NCBI GenBank assembly: GCA_903925015.1
Contig: CAIYDY010000341.1
Location: 1-40,686, forward strand
From: an uncultured Acidobacteriia bacterium
GTDB taxonomy: Bacteria > Acidobacteriota > Terriglobia > Bryobacterales > Bryobacteraceae
DNA length: 40,686 bases
Direction of reading: 5' to 3'
The position numbers and the translations under genes were made by a program. The notes beneath the pieces were generated by a model. The model was not told where the DNA came from. It saw only the letters and a program-made list of their open reading frames with translations, and made no database searches. Within the stretch, counting starts at the first letter, position 1, and every line of letters starts with the position of its first letter. This document shows positions 33,817 to 38,861 of the stretch, one piece after another.

Positions 33817-34628
33817 ACAAGTCCACCCACCAGTTGCATCAAGTCAGGCTGCAGGTAATTCGGAATCACGTAGTGGGCCCCCGCCTCGATCACCCAGCGC
33901 CGCTTCTTCTGGTCCACCTCGACGCACTCCGGCTCATCGCTGGCGACACCAACAGCAACGCCTCCGATCAACGCCGTCTCCTCAATCTCCGCCCGCCCAT
34001 CGCCAAAAGTCACGATCTGGTTAGGGTCAATCCCCGAATCGACCAACTGGCGAAGTAGTTCCCCCTTCGTCGGCTGCCCCGGAGCCGAGCCATGGATCGA
34101 CCGGAACAGATCGTGGATCCCCAGCAATCCGCATTCCATCACAATCGAATCGTGGTCGCTGCCGCTAGCCAGATACGCCGGAATTCCCTCGGCGGCCAAG
34201 GCCAGCAAAATTTCCCTGGACCCGGGAATCATCAGAGCCTCCGCCGGAATTGAGCCATCGACCAAGCCGCCCAATCGTTGCTGCCTCGCGCCTTCCAGCC
34301 GGGACATAAACTCTTCCTTGTATTCCCAGCCGGTGCGCGCCAAGCCGCCCAACCGCTCCACGTGTTCCGCAAACGCGGCCATCTGGAAATAGGTGTCGCG
34401 CCCCGTCAACCGCGCTACATACTCCTCGGCCTCTGCCCGCAACGCTATCGGGTCCGGTCCAAGCGCCCCCAACGTTTCCATCATCATGTCCAACATCAGT
34501 GGCATCCATCCCGCCCGGACCATGCCGATGGTGCCGTCAAAATCAAACATCACGGCTCGGGCCGGCTTCCGCGTTAAGACTGCGATTCGTTCGATCAAGC
34601 TCGTATTCTCACATGCGGCCTGGACCAT
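33813..34628 (-). CDS. HAD superfamily hydrolase (phosphatase-like)
   Basis: A 271-residue HAD-fold protein. Motif I is VMFDFDGTIG with the nucleophile Asp29 and acid/base Asp31. Motif II is YLASGSD, the motif III region carries QPTKGELLRQL, and motif IV is VTFGDGRAEIEET. A helical cap lies between motifs I and II (about 40-130). The substrate is probably a sugar phosphate given the coupled ROK kinase downstream, but that is inference. It starts at ATG 34628, 47 bp from the divergent heparinase-like gene. The first 20 residues before the core are poorly supported and a later start is possible. Confidence 0.88.
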   Translation of the reverse strand: MVQAACENTSLIERIAVLTRKPARAVMFDFDGTIGMVRAGWMPLMLDMMMETLGALGPDPIALRAEAEEYVARLTGRDTYFQMAAFAEHVERLGGLARTGWEYKEEFMSRLEGARQQRLGGLVDGSIPAEALMIPGSREILLALAAEGIPAYLASGSDHDSIVMECGLLGIHDLFRSIHGSAPGQPTKGELLRQLVDSGIDPNQIVTFGDGRAEIEETALIGGVAVGVASDEPECVEVDQKKRRWVIEAGAHYVIPNYLQPDLMQLVGGLV

Positions 34629-34675
34629 CTACGGTTCGTGCGTTGCCACCTGTGCCAAACTGTTGGGAGGTGAGG

Positions 34676-36553
34676 GTGCAGCTGACACGAAGGGACGCGA
34701 TTGGACGCTTGGCCTGCTTGGCAGGTTGCGCCGATCTTTCCTCAGCCGCCCAATCAGCAACAGACCAGCCCACCGTCCCAACCCCGCTCGACCCGTTCAA
34801 GACCCTCCGGCCAGCCCACCCGCGTTTGCTGCTACTCGACACGGAATTGGACCGGATCCGCCAAAACGCCCGAGAAAACCCCGTCGCCCGCCGCTGCTAC
34901 AACGACTTGGAGAAAGAAGCCGACCGACTCCTCTCCACCCCGCCCGTCGATCCCCGGTCCAGCGGAAACAACCCCAGAACCCCGTCCCGCCGGGTGCTCG
35001 ACCGCGTCCTGACGCTGGCACTGATGTACCGGCTCACAGGGAAAGATCCTTGGTTGCGCCGCGCCATCATGGAGTTGAAATCCGCAGCCAACTTCCGGGA
35101 TTGGAACCCCACCCGATTCATCGACTGTGCGGAAATGACTGTGGCCTTCGCTATCGGCTACGATTGGCTCTACCCGGTCCTCTCGACCGACGAACGGTCG
35201 CTGGTTTTGAACGCTCTGCAGTCAAAGGGCCTCGACCAAGCCCGTCCCGTCTACCAAGCGAAAAATTGGTGGACCCGAGAGAAATTCCACTGGAACATCG
35301 TTTGCAACGCCGCGATGATGATTGGTGCCGTGGCTCTGGCCGAACCTGCCAGCCCCGAGGGACCTACCGGTTCCGGCGACAAGACCGCTGAAATCGCCCG
35401 TGCCGCTGCCGAGTCTATCGTCCATGGCCTGGCGACTTGGAACGCCGACGGAGGGTGGCCGGAAGGTCCCGGCTACGGGGAATTCGCTGCGCGCTACACG
35501 ACCCTCTTCTTTGCTTCCTTGAATACAGCACTCAGCTCCGACCTGGGCATTGGTGCTCCGCGTGGCTTCGACCGCTATGGCCGGTTCCGCAGCCACACCA
35601 CCGGACCAACCGGGCGCGCGTTCAACTGGGGCGACGGAATGGACGATCCAGGTACCGCGCCGGAACAGTTCTGGCTCGCCAAGCGCTACAACGCGCCCGT
35701 CTGGGCTTGGCAGGAGCAGCGGCAGATGGAACGGACCGCCAGATCCGAGCCCTTGGACCTTATCTGGTTCTCCAAGGAGGCCCGCCCCCCCCAGCAGACG
35801 CCTGCCGTATCTTTGGACGCGGTCTTCGCCGCTACCGGAATCGCAACTTTCCGCAGCGCTTGGGACGACCCCAACGCGCTGTTCTTCGCCATCAAAGGTG
35901 GAGACAACAAGATCCCCCACGCCCATCCGGACTTGGGTACATTTGTCCTTGATGCTGGAGGTGTGCGATGGGCCTTGGACGAGCCCTACGATGATGCTTC
36001 CCTAGTTGCTGGACAAAGAAACGCGCGAGCCCGCACAGAAAATCACAATACACTGCTGGTAGACCGCGAAAACCAAGATCCGAAGGGTGAAGCGAGGATC
36101 ATCAGGCAGGAGTTCGGACCGGAGATGAGTTGGGTGCAAATGGACTTGTCCAAGGCCAACCCAAAATTGCGCCAATGGACCCGCCGCGCAGGGATCGCTC
36201 AACGCCGATGCATTTTGATTGAGGATGTGGTTCGGGCAGACCAGCCGATTGAGATCGTCTGGGGTCTTTCGACAGATGCGGAAATCACCGTGGACGGACC
36301 CACGGCGCTTCTCAGGAAGAACGGATGGAATCTATACGCTGAAATCCGTACACCCCGCCACGCGATATTCGATATCGCAGCCATTCAACCTGCCCACGGG
36401 AAATCGCCTAACCTGACTCAGCAGACTGCGGGCAGGCAGCGATTGGTTGTGAGATTGCTGGAAAAGATTTCCGAGCTGAATCTCAATATCTCACTGACGC
36501 CATACCGGGAAGGGCAACCCAAGCCGCGCACGACTCTACAGCTCCCAGCCTGA
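34676..36553 (+). CDS. Heparinase II/III family polysaccharide lyase-like protein, exported
   Basis: A 625-residue protein. After a leader with a twin-arginine (TRRDAIGRLACLAGC, with LAGC a possible lipobox) comes an alpha-helical toroid (about 60-370, with KFHWNIVCNAAMMIGAVAL and GGWPEGPGYGEFAARYT) followed by a beta-sandwich heparinase II/III domain (from about 400, with HAHPDLGTFVLDAGGVRWALD and TENHNTLLVD). This layout is that of PL12/PL15/PL21-like lyases acting on uronic-acid polysaccharides; the exact PL family is not settled from here. The GTG at 34676 has GGAGG 5 nt upstream. Together with the hexuronate-type transporter at 38953 and ROK kinase it hints at uronate polysaccharide use. 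Confidence 0.88.
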   Translation: MQLTRRDAIGRLACLAGCADLSSAAQSATDQPTVPTPLDPFKTLRPAHPRLLLLDTELDRIRQNARENPVARRCYNDLEKEADRLLSTPPVDPRSSGNNPRTPSRRVLDRVLTLALMYRLTGKDPWLRRAIMELKSAANFRDWNPTRFIDCAEMTVAFAIGYDWLYPVLSTDERSLVLNALQSKGLDQARPVYQAKNWWTREKFHWNIVCNAAMMIGAVALAEPASPEGPTGSGDKTAEIARAAAESIVHGLATWNADGGWPEGPGYGEFAARYTTLFFASLNTALSSDLGIGAPRGFDRYGRFRSHTTGPTGRAFNWGDGMDDPGTAPEQFWLAKRYNAPVWAWQEQRQMERTARSEPLDLIWFSKEARPPQQTPAVSLDAVFAATGIATFRSAWDDPNALFFAIKGGDNKIPHAHPDLGTFVLDAGGVRWALDEPYDDASLVAGQRNARARTENHNTLLVDRENQDPKGEARIIRQEFGPEMSWVQMDLSKANPKLRQWTRRAGIAQRRCILIEDVVRADQPIEIVWGLSTDAEITVDGPTALLRKNGWNLYAEIRTPRHAIFDIAAIQPAHGKSPNLTQQTAGRQRLVVRLLEKISELNLNISLTPYREGQPKPRTTLQLPA

Positions 36554-36558
36554 TCCAG

Positions 36559-36723
36559 CTACGAGGTCACGGTGGCTTGATCGTTGTCGTCCGGCGAGAT
36601 GGTGCCCTTTCTCACGACATGCGGAATCCCACCCATGGCGATCAGACGAGGTGTCACGTAATCTTTTAGATCGACGCTGGCTGTTTCTTGAACGTTTGAC
36701 ATGTTTTTATTGTACTCTTGCAT
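36559..36723 (-). CDS. Putative RiPP precursor peptide with lasso-type leader signature
   Basis: A 54-residue peptide gene. The leader contains DYVTPRLIAMGG, an exact match to YxxPxLxxxG (Tyr22, Pro25, Leu27, Gly31), the motif that the recognition element of lasso-peptide systems binds. The following part is short and polar (RKGTISPDDNDQATVTS). The ATG at 36723 has GGGAG 6 nt upstream; the second in-frame ATG at 36702 lacks a good site. It lies 45 bp downstream of the pqqD-like gene on the same strand. The expected core start with Gly and an acidic residue at position 7-9 is not seen, and the usual Thr six residues after the leader Gly is Val, so the product class is open. No protease, cyclase or radical SAM maturase is in the window. 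Confidence 0.7.
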   Translation of the reverse strand: MQEYNKNMSNVQETASVDLKDYVTPRLIAMGGIPHVVRKGTISPDDNDQATVTS

Positions 36724-36768
36724 CCTGCACTCCCGTGATCTTCCTAAGCTCGGCTTGACGGAGTCTTC

Positions 36769-37047
36769 TCACACGTTCGGAGATTCGCCAACACTGCGCA
36801 CCAGACCTGCCTGAACCAACTCCGCCAACAATGCACCCACATCGGATCGCAACTTGGCCTCATCCACCCGGTATGAGGCTTTCATCCCCTGTACCACCGA
36901 TTCCGAATCGCCGTGCTCCTTGAGCAACTTCCAAACGTCGGCACCGACACTGTCCAAGCCGAAGTACTGCTGGCTCTCCAGATTCAAGAGCACAACCTCA
37001 TCTCGAACTTCCTGGTAGATCACGTCGTCGCTGATTTCTACGCGCAC
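36769..37047 (-). CDS. PqqD-like RiPP recognition element protein
   Basis: A 92-residue stand-alone PqqD-family protein with the winged three-helix recognition fold: a beta start DVIYQEVRDEVVLLNLESQQYFGLDSVGADVWKLL (read in segments, residues 8-42) and helices through SVVQGMKASYRVDEAKLRSDVGALLAELVQAGLV. In lasso and other RiPP pathways this protein binds the leader peptide. The GTG start has AGAGG 7 nt upstream. It is the first gene of a two-gene unit with the peptide gene at 36559, and a promoter with TTGCAA and TAGAAA 17 bp apart lies just upstream. Confidence 0.88.
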   Translation of the reverse strand: MRVEISDDVIYQEVRDEVVLLNLESQQYFGLDSVGADVWKLLKEHGDSESVVQGMKASYRVDEAKLRSDVGALLAELVQAGLVRSVGESPNV

Positions 37048-37070
37048 CGAAGAGCCTCTCCCATACTTTA

Positions 37071-37099
37071 TTTCTACCTTATCGCCGCATCAATTGCAA
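37071..37099 (-). promoter_or_regulatory. Candidate promoter of the pqqD-like/precursor unit
   Basis: On the minus strand TTGCAA (37094-37099) and TAGAAA (37071-37076) are separated by 17 bp, ending 23 nt before the GTG at 37047. It lies in the 76-bp gap after the haem-motif gene, so the peptide unit can be expressed on its own. Confidence 0.4.
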
Positions 37100-37123
37100 G
37101 GGACAATCCCTCCCGGACAAGCC

Positions 37124-38446
37124 TCATTTGTCGTACCAGTACGGCGACAACCCCGGCTTCACTCCCCCAATAATCTCCCGGATGTCACGCCTCTGGCCCT
37201 CAGACAGGTACGCAAACTTCGCACCGCCCCGGCCTTCCAAAACCGTCTGCATCCGACCATACAACCGACTCTTCACAACCTCCGGCATCGCGTCGAACGC
37301 CTCAGTTTCTATCATGAAGCTGCACGGATATCGGAACATCCGGGTTGCCAAATCAAACTGCCGCAAACCTCGCCCGTTCGAATCCTGGCGCCCGCCCCGT
37401 TCAAAATCCGCTTGGAATCCTGACGTGCCCTTCACCGGCTGCGCCAACTTCGCCTCGCCCGCGAAAAACACATACTCCAGCAATTCCTCAACCGCCGCGT
37501 CGATCCGGTGCGCCGTCGATTCCCGCACCTGCCCCTCGGGTTCCCCCAGGGACTTGTTGATCGCGTTGTTCTCGTACATCGCCATCCGCGCTTCCCAGCC
37601 CACCCTGGTCATTAGGTTCCACATCTGGGTCTGGTGCTCCAACGTCATCAGCGCGACTATGTCACTATGTGGCGCGAGATACGCTCCCGTGTCAATGAAC
37701 TTACCAAGATCCGAAAGATTTCTGGTCCCGGCCGAGACAGGCAAACGGTCATCCTCCGCCGCATTCCCCACGACCGCATTTCCCATGTGCTCCTGGTCGC
37801 CGCTCTTGCCCGTTACGTACCAGCCGCCCCAGCGGTCCTTGAGTGCGCTCCGGTGGTCCGTGATGTATCCCCCCAAACTCATTAGAGGCATTCCGTTGCG
37901 ATCGGGAACAACGGAACGCACCATCATTCCCGGCACGCCCAGCGTGGCCCCGGACTGGTGGCACTGCAAACAAATATCCCGCCGGTCGAAGTGCGGACGG
38001 CTGGCCCGCTCCTGGTCCAGCGTGTAGAAAATCGTGCCCTGCCGCGGGTCCTGGACAGCCAGTTCCAGCACCTCCCCGGTGCGCACGAATCCGACCGTCG
38101 AACTGTCGTTGAAATATAGCGCCCTCGGCGTCCTCGGCGCGATCCTCGGTGCCTGGAAGCTGGTCTTTGAGAACACCAGGACCTGGGAACTTAGCGGAAC
38201 CTTCAGTTCGCGCAGTACCGACCGCAAATACCCGAACTCGTCGTCATACTGCAGCGTCGCTTTGCCGGCGTCCAACTTGCGCTGCAACCTCGCCACCGGA
38301 TCGTCCACCGGAGCCTTCGCGTATTGAATCGCGTCGTGATCCAGCGGCACCATGTACGAACTGCCAAGGCCCGCCCGTGCCCCCTGGCCCAAAATCGCAA
38401 CGGCCCCGACCCCAGCCAACCAATATCCAGCCTCACGCAGTCGCAT
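37124..38446 (-). CDS. Exported protein with a single c-type haem motif
   Basis: A 440-residue protein of a type I cannot name. Residues 1-25 (RLREAGYWLAGVGAVAILGQ) form a signal peptide. One CxxCH haem-attachment motif is present as ICLQCHQSG near residue 160, in a segment FDRRDICLQC. The rest is alpha/beta without further Cys-His motifs. The ATG at 38446 was chosen over 38479 because AGGGGAG stands 9 nt upstream and the signal peptide starts there. It overlaps the Rrf2 gene by 14 bp and is probably its target and partner in one operon. A periplasmic cytochrome-like electron carrier or sensor is the likely class. Confidence 0.75.
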   Translation of the reverse strand: MRLREAGYWLAGVGAVAILGQGARAGLGSSYMVPLDHDAIQYAKAPVDDPVARLQRKLDAGKATLQYDDEFGYLRSVLRELKVPLSSQVLVFSKTSFQAPRIAPRTPRALYFNDSSTVGFVRTGEVLELAVQDPRQGTIFYTLDQERASRPHFDRRDICLQCHQSGATLGVPGMMVRSVVPDRNGMPLMSLGGYITDHRSALKDRWGGWYVTGKSGDQEHMGNAVVGNAAEDDRLPVSAGTRNLSDLGKFIDTGAYLAPHSDIVALMTLEHQTQMWNLMTRVGWEARMAMYENNAINKSLGEPEGQVRESTAHRIDAAVEELLEYVFFAGEAKLAQPVKGTSGFQADFERGGRQDSNGRGLRQFDLATRMFRYPCSFMIETEAFDAMPEVVKSRLYGRMQTVLEGRGGAKFAYLSEGQRRDIREIIGGVKPGLSPYWYDK

Positions 38447-38861
38447 CGCAAACGCTCCCCTCACAAAACGATTTCCCAATCAGCGATTCAATCGTTGTTG
38501 CACCGAAGGCCTGCTCCACCCCCAGCATTGCGTCGTCCAACTTCCTGTGCAGTGGACAAAGATTCTCCCCATGCTGTTTCAGACCAAGCGGACAAGTCCG
38601 GATTCGCTGGATCGGGTCCACCGCGTTGACCACCTCCAGCACCGTCAGCGTCCCCGGCAAACGCGCCGCTTGGAAGCCGCCGCCCCGTCCCCGCCGCCCC
38701 GCCACGATCTCCGCGCGGGCCAGCGAATTCAACACCTTCGACAAATAATCGAGCGGCACCCGCGATTCCACGGCAATCTCCTGCGCGGTCTTGGCACCCG
38801 GAGGTCCTGCCGCCAAGGCCACGATGGCCCGAAGCGCATACTCGGCTGTTTGAGATAGCAT
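38433..38861 (-). CDS. Rrf2 family transcriptional regulator
   Basis: A 142-residue winged-helix repressor of the Rrf2 family. The helix-turn-helix is KTAQEIAVESRVPLDYLSKVLNSL and the wing carries GRRGRGGGFQAAR (read in segments). Cysteines in RTCPLGLK and NLCPLHRK, with more near the end (SFCEGSVC), could hold an Fe-S cluster, so it may sense iron, NO or redox state as NsrR, RirA or IscR do. The ATG at 38861 is the usual family start (MLSQTAEYALRAI); GTG 38870 is possible. TGGATA-AAGC-TATCCA lies 34-49 bp upstream, a candidate operator, and the regulated gene at 37124 follows. Confidence 0.9.
   Translation of the reverse strand: MLSQTAEYALRAIVALAAGPPGAKTAQEIAVESRVPLDYLSKVLNSLARAEIVAGRRGRGGGFQAARLPGTLTVLEVVNAVDPIQRIRTCPLGLKQHGENLCPLHRKLDDAMLGVEQAFGATTIESLIGKSFCEGSVCDATA

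Follow-up and report, generated by a model that had tools for sequence, protein, structure and literature searches.

A stand-alone PqqD-type protein (B1) and the short peptide encoded directly after it (A1) are interpreted here as the leader-recognition module of a lasso-peptide system dispersed over the genome, with its enzymes encoded elsewhere, a reading to which we assign, from sequence comparison, a probability of about 80%. The pair lies in the window, that is, the whole analysed stretch of 40,686 nucleotides, which corresponds to the complete contig C341 of genome G000 (6.33 Mb in 459 contigs, given as 97% complete). The reading is carried by the genes and their homologies, by intact motifs, by a locus structure common to three genomes and by the co-occurrence of the parts. 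Genome mining for lasso peptides mostly seeks clustered genes and would detect in such a system only an orphan pair, a protease on its own and a cyclase lacking B1.

A first-pass annotation of the window had offered two explanations for the pair, enzymes encoded elsewhere or a new class of modification. The former has gained ground, since one B1, one B2 and one cyclase are found at three loci and recur in this way in two relatives, G017 (980 contigs, given as 7% contaminated) and G019. The latter is not needed because the core fits a lasso ring closed at Asp 7/8, as in 14 precursors. The assignment of the peptide to the RiPPs, a prediction from genes, is better supported than before.

The B1-A1 locus

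The features of the locus are collected in Table 1. The open reading frames, the 45-bp gap separating B1 from the downstream A1 and the Pfam match all agree with the initial description of a 54-residue peptide that carries the motif YVTPRLIAMG, follows a PqqD-like gene at 45 bp and has its own GGGAG. With five bases the latter sequence is weak taken alone; its place is occupied by GGAGG in G019 and by a less clear sequence in G017. A pattern scan of positions 36200-38600 found no promoter- or terminator-like sites.

Table 1. Features of the B1-A1 locus in the window
Feature	Position	Strand	Basis or remark
B1, stand-alone PqqD-type RiPP recognition element, 92 aa, GTG start	36769..37047	-	Pfam PqqD
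A1, predicted lasso-type precursor peptide, 54 aa, ATG start	36559..36723	-	ORF, in-frame orthologues, profile
GGGAG, Shine-Dalgarno-like, 6 bases before the A1 ATG	36730..36734	-	read from sequence
Leader recognition motif YVTPRLIAMG, A1 residues 22-31, Tyr at -17	36631..36660	-	precursor alignment
Predicted A1 core KGTISPDDNDQATVTS, C-terminal Ser	36562..36609	-	Tyr(-17) register
Predicted A1 ring, residues 1-8, Asp7/Asp8	36586-36609	-	Tyr(-17) register
451-aa gene, no Pfam match at E up to 1	37124-38479	-	flanks the B1-A1 pair
Heparinase-like gene, convergent with A1	34499-36553	+	other flank of the B1-A1 pair

A six-frame translation of the window contains the Y..P.L...G motif a single time. 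In simulations, a small ORF containing it appeared in 5/6000 stretches of 500 bp (one strand) and in 10/60 whole windows. From these counts, the leader motif by itself is not rare; its placement behind a PqqD gene is.

Profile, sequence and modelled fold alike identify B1 as a lasso-type RiPP recognition element (RRE). The protein reaches 65 bits against Pfam PqqD (cut-off 23.4). In NCBIfam it scores highest with the two lasso PqqD chaperone models, at 51.8 and 49.8 bits, under the respective cut-offs of 70 and 80. Its closest PDB sequence is TbiB1 (E 2.6e-13). The AlphaFold model of B1 (pLDDT 89) matches the TbiB1-leader complexes 5v1u_B and 5v1v_A with TM values of 0.86 and 0.88; lasso B1 6jx3 ranks next, and only then PqqD proper. 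TbiB1, an RRE seen bound to the TbiA leader (5v1u, 5v1v), is of the same fold and sequence kind as B1, and it is through B1 alone that the window pair is likened to it. A tree of B1 proteins was weakly supported, joining G013 to a long radical-SAM row, and is not leaned on. G000 contains two PqqD matches, B1 and a protein encoded beside a radical SAM enzyme on contig C128, and none on contig C328.

Leader and core of the precursors

According to the available part of PMC10368454, YxxPxL occupies positions -17 to -12 in the published lasso register. Setting the A1 tyrosine at -17 gives a predicted core starting with K1-G-T-I-S-P-D7-D8; cleavage one residue later would give, as read from the sequence, G1...D7, D9. 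The earlier objections that the core has neither a Gly start nor Asp or Glu at 7-9, and that it does not fit a lasso, fall with the Tyr(-17) register, which puts Asp at both 7 and 8.

Within the genus, 14 precursors of the A1 kind were gathered: scanning for the motif in the neighbourhood of PqqD or cyclase genes gave 12, and the remaining two (G005, G013) were read by eye from the frames. In this set, chosen by eye and not blind to the core, Asp occupies core position 8 or 9 in 14/14 (shuffled mean 3.3; 0/20000 shuffles) and the C-terminal residue is Ser in 13 (shuffled mean 2.1). Leader position -2 is Val in 13 precursors and Ile in one. The G005 leader has its motif one residue out of register, and Y22, P25 and G31 are invariant in the 13 aligned precursors. 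Core residue 1 is Lys in A1 of G000 and Gly, Ala, Ser or Gln in the other 13, with Gly in the A1 of G017 and Ala in that of G019. In lasso peptides, the ring-closing residue 1 is most often Gly, and the usual leader residue at -2 is Thr; both the Lys of A1 and its Val(-2) instead of Thr are counted against the lasso reading.

The register was controlled with 11 precursor-like ORFs located beside other PqqD clades, which like chance ORFs had been left out of the 14 and which all carry Thr(-2). Asp or Glu is present at core 8 or 9 in 6/6 of the Tyr-type control ORFs and in 1/5 of the Trp-type ones, the other four having Asp at 10. On these counts, the Tyr(-17) register holds for the predicted cores behind Tyr leaders, whereas a shift by one residue can occur behind Trp leaders. 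The precursors with Trp for Tyr (L054, L058, L059, L063) suggest that the leader is longer by one residue there. Five loci from other genera, those examined out of the weak profile hits (E 0.003 to 0.1, plus G237), show Asp or Glu at 8 in 5/5 with four Thr(-2) and one Val(-2); an unrelated motif match in L177 was left out. The control ORFs and these five overlap in L053 and L056.

A1 is intact and in frame in G017 (L012) and G019 (L045), at the same place and with the same neighbours, which answers the first-pass question of homologues and frame-disrupting variation. Between G000 and G017, residues 22-38 of A1 show 12 synonymous and 5 nonsynonymous changes, and the ungapped core 6.7 and 18.3. 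For A2, the second precursor of G000, the leader shows 4 synonymous and 0 nonsynonymous changes and the core 2.9 and 7.1. The comparison of leader and core proposed at the outset accordingly yields a constrained leader and a variable core.

The surroundings of A1 (36328-36800) share 42-70% identity per 100 columns with L012 of G017, the flanks 72-100%. Synonymous divergence is highest in A1, with a dS of 2.4, near saturation, compared with 0.05 in the ROK gene and 0.31 in the 451-aa gene. The low conservation around A1 looks as if a cassette had been exchanged or diversified.

Detection of the precursor family

A single-peptide search of public genome contigs returned one relative, in an uncultured Acidobacteriia genome from a metagenome, and BLAST with the A1 peptide over 237 family genomes found, besides the window, only G017. 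Pfam gave no match for A1, and NCBIfam returned nothing on the peptides but a 12.7-bit match below cut-off. The wider family emerged only via the neighbours of PqqD and cyclase genes and via a precursor profile, against which A1 scores 65.4 bits, its own row being part of the profile. In each of G000, G017 and G019, the number of profile hits is exactly two. Extended to the order (257 genomes), the profile added a single hit with E no higher than 0.001. This hit (4.4e-4) lies in G237, a genome of another family, and is an ordinary precursor with Thr at -2.

Enzymes encoded elsewhere in G000

The initial statement that maturation enzymes are missing stands for the window and fails for the genome, which encodes a single B2, a single lasso-like cyclase and a kinase. 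The genome-wide search for lasso B2 and C homologues that had been recommended located B2 on contig C304 and the lasso-like cyclase on contig C328. B2, the sole PF13471 match of G000, scores 69.4 bits against NCBIfam lasso_biosyn_B2 (cut-off 33); no match to it was found among PDB sequences. Its gene is divergent from a run common to G000 and G019 (L005 6149-10481, L149) that comprises a 135-aa unknown protein, an HTTM protein, a sulfotransferase-like protein and a PF14907 nucleotidyltransferase. Nucleotidyltransferases of the latter kind are found in lasso clusters such as bsf, according to the available part of PMC10368454.

Contig C328 (5 kb) carries, in this order, the precursor A2, a 613-aa cyclase, an HprK-like kinase and a JmjC_2 protein. 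The A2 gene, whose start codon is uncertain, directly precedes that of the cyclase and its predicted core is GGENAGHGDRDGLTTS. The cyclase matches Asn_synthase with 80.9 bits and its best NCBIfam model is the lasso cyclase, at 239.6 bits, under the cut-off of 525. The other two G000 matches of the cyclase query score 61.6 and 49.4 bits, and by sequence the C328 protein is the only lasso-like cyclase of G000. By eye, the motifs are intact in B2 (Cys and GHAW His), in the cyclase (SGGLDS) and in the kinase (P-loop and DD), as is the HxD...H of JmjC in G000 and G019. Family scores of the kinase are weak (27.9 bits for a cut-off of 200; 18 bits for a Pfam cut-off of 33.3), and the presence of its motif together with that of the C-terminal Ser (13/14 precursors) suggests a paeninodin-like phosphorylation. 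The gene after that of the lasso kinase encodes a JmjC_2 protein, possibly a lasso hydroxylase, in each of the three split genomes (L014 3399-4544, L147, L148). The leader of A1 carries the YxxPxL motif of a lasso precursor and its predicted core an acidic residue at 7-9, and the same genome encodes a putative RRE, B2 and cyclase.

Distribution of the three loci in the genus

Lasso genes are usually clustered, a habit without chemical need. In G000, G017 and G019 they occupy three loci and not one cluster, each genome having a single B2 and a single close cyclase along with two PqqD genes and two precursors. The order in G019, Rrf2, 451-aa gene, B1, A1, heparinase, HAD and ROK, is that of G000, and the G017 contig begins at the 451-aa gene and keeps this order thereafter. 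Both relatives also encode A2, cyclase, kinase and JmjC consecutively, the last gene being truncated by a contig end in G017. The surroundings of B2 on C304 are shared as well, with a 135-aa protein and a VanZ-like gene in G017 (3-kb contig) and with a 135-aa protein, HTTM, a sulfotransferase-like protein and a nucleotidyltransferase in G019. In the latter genome, the cyclase (C126:41630) and B2 (C126:202516) lie 159 kb apart within one 276-kb contig, and their separation does not, therefore, come from contig breaks.

Close cyclases are encoded by 9/19 genus genomes (E up to 4.7e-58; next genome 1.0e-39) and form one clade, supported at 100/100, in a tree of 15 chosen rows. Nine B2 proteins likewise form one clade (100/100) in a tree of all 25 B2 hits, and the two clades originate from the same nine genomes. 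The precursor family is found in these nine as well, in eight by profile (E below 1e-12) and in G005 by eye. This shared distribution links the three loci, in genomes that are mutually related and do not stand for nine independent events. Both the cyclase and the B2 trees group G000 with G017 first and with G019 next.

B1, precursor, cyclase and B2 are clustered in G005 and G013. In G018, B2 is carried by a different contig with at least 12 kb on either side of it, and contig ends blur the arrangement in G006, G008 and G022. These genomes suggest an evolutionary series from clustered genes (G005, G013) through a B2 set apart (G018) to the full split (G000, G017, G019). G006 carries on C446 (L049 3398-4872) a cyclase beside B1 and a precursor, matched in two adjoining pieces, and on C125 another cyclase with precursor, kinase and B2. 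At the sites of other genus members, Rrf2 stands beside the 451-aa gene in 7/8 loci examined, and heparinase, HAD or ROK neighbours were found in 0/8; for this reason the inserted unit cannot be delimited.

Proposed pathway and alternative readings

In the pathway proposed for the dispersed system, B1, the only lasso-type RRE found in G000, would bind the YxxPxL leaders of both A1 and A2. The B2 protease of C304 would cut the leader after residue 38, with Val at -2, and the C328 cyclase would join the new N-terminus to Asp 7/8 of A1 or to Asp 9 of A2, forming the lasso ring. Phosphorylation of the conserved C-terminal Ser would probably fall to the HprK-like kinase encoded beside the cyclase, and a hydroxylation may be added by the JmjC-type protein. 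Binding, cleavage, ring closure, the modifications and the use of one enzyme set for both precursors are steps that we infer. The most complete version of the scheme combines three fixed loci, a single trans-acting RRE and a fast-changing satellite precursor with shared enzymes yielding two phosphorylated, hydroxylated lasso peptides; it is put forward tentatively, the odds being rather against it in this full form.

The dispersal might only be apparent, one ordinary cluster in the cell having been scattered by binning and contig breaks. G000 consists of 459 contigs, and 2.5 kb of sequence follow the cyclase on C328; in G017, B2 sits on a contig of 3 kb and the A1-B1 pair starts 1.3 kb from a contig end. 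However, the shorter flank of the pair extends over 3.6 kb in G000 and 5.3 kb in G019 with neighbours common to both, and the cyclase and B2 of G019 are both inside a single contig, 159 kb from each other in 276 kb. Such an artefact is considered very improbable. It is also unlikely that the pair is a relic in which A1 is no longer processed while B1 is kept for A2 and the cyclase locus. This would suit the Lys that starts the A1 core in G000 and the position of A1 in the least conserved stretch relative to G017 (36800-36328, 42-70% per 100 columns), yet the peptide is intact in three genomes, retains Asp8 and the C-terminal Ser, and keeps its leader residues despite changes at nearly all synonymous sites.

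A pathway without ring closure can also be envisaged, in which B1 and the kinase act on A1 and the leader is cut to release a linear phosphorylated peptide. The LPP family of Bacillota, as presented in the available part of PMC13381572, combines an RRE, an HprK-like kinase and an NTP transferase without cyclase, and G000 does possess an HprK-like kinase and a PF14907 protein. The presence of a lasso-type B2 and a lasso-like cyclase that co-occur with the precursors, as well as Asp 8/9 in 14/14 of the latter, leaves this possibility with very little weight. The dispersed lasso system is the reading retained below.

Comparison with known lasso systems

Cebulassopins (2026, JACS) reportedly derive, by their title, from a lasso system with a split operon. 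Among prior reports of dispersed lasso systems, this title alone mentions a split operon. A literature search covering few subscription papers found no lasso system in which two precursors go with a B1, a B2 and a cyclase encoded at three separate conserved loci. The cebulassopin paper is cited, in the available part of PMC13381572, for lasso clusters encoding several precursors.

The bsf system of Bradymonas sediminis, as far as the available part of PMC10368454 describes it, likewise has discrete B1 and B2, YxxPxL at -17 to -12, Ile/Val(-2), an HprK-like kinase and a nucleotidyltransferase, and its ring closes to Asp8. It differs in forming one cluster with a transporter, whereas the present system has three loci, two precursors and a JmjC-type protein in addition. 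Ser3 is the target of the bsf kinase (PMC10368454); in the present precursors it is the C-terminal Ser that is conserved, and Ser3 is not. Putative kinase-associated lasso precursors with Ile/Val(-2) are also reported in Acidobacteriaceae in the same text (PMC10368454). With the paeninodin type, in which the C-terminal Ser is phosphorylated, the system shares the HprK-like kinase and the conserved C-terminal Ser; it departs from it by Val at -2 and by its dispersed genes (PMC13352647, available part). Citrulassins likewise involve a lasso enzyme encoded outside the cluster, but there the outlying enzyme is a tailoring deiminase, while here B1, B2 and the cyclase themselves stand apart (PMC12971885, available part).

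If the dispersed reading is true, co-occurrence can be used to assign orphan leader-recognition pairs to distant enzymes, and these genomes would provide a natural test of whether one RRE feeds two precursors to enzymes encoded elsewhere.

A second RiPP-like locus

G000 carries another RiPP-like locus, L006 (C128, 7901-10706), composed of a signal-peptidase-like ORF and an HprK-like ORF, both named by eye, a PqqD gene and a radical SAM/SPASM protein, encoded one after another. The radical SAM enzyme was considered as a candidate serving A1 and set aside because the C128 locus carries its own PqqD.
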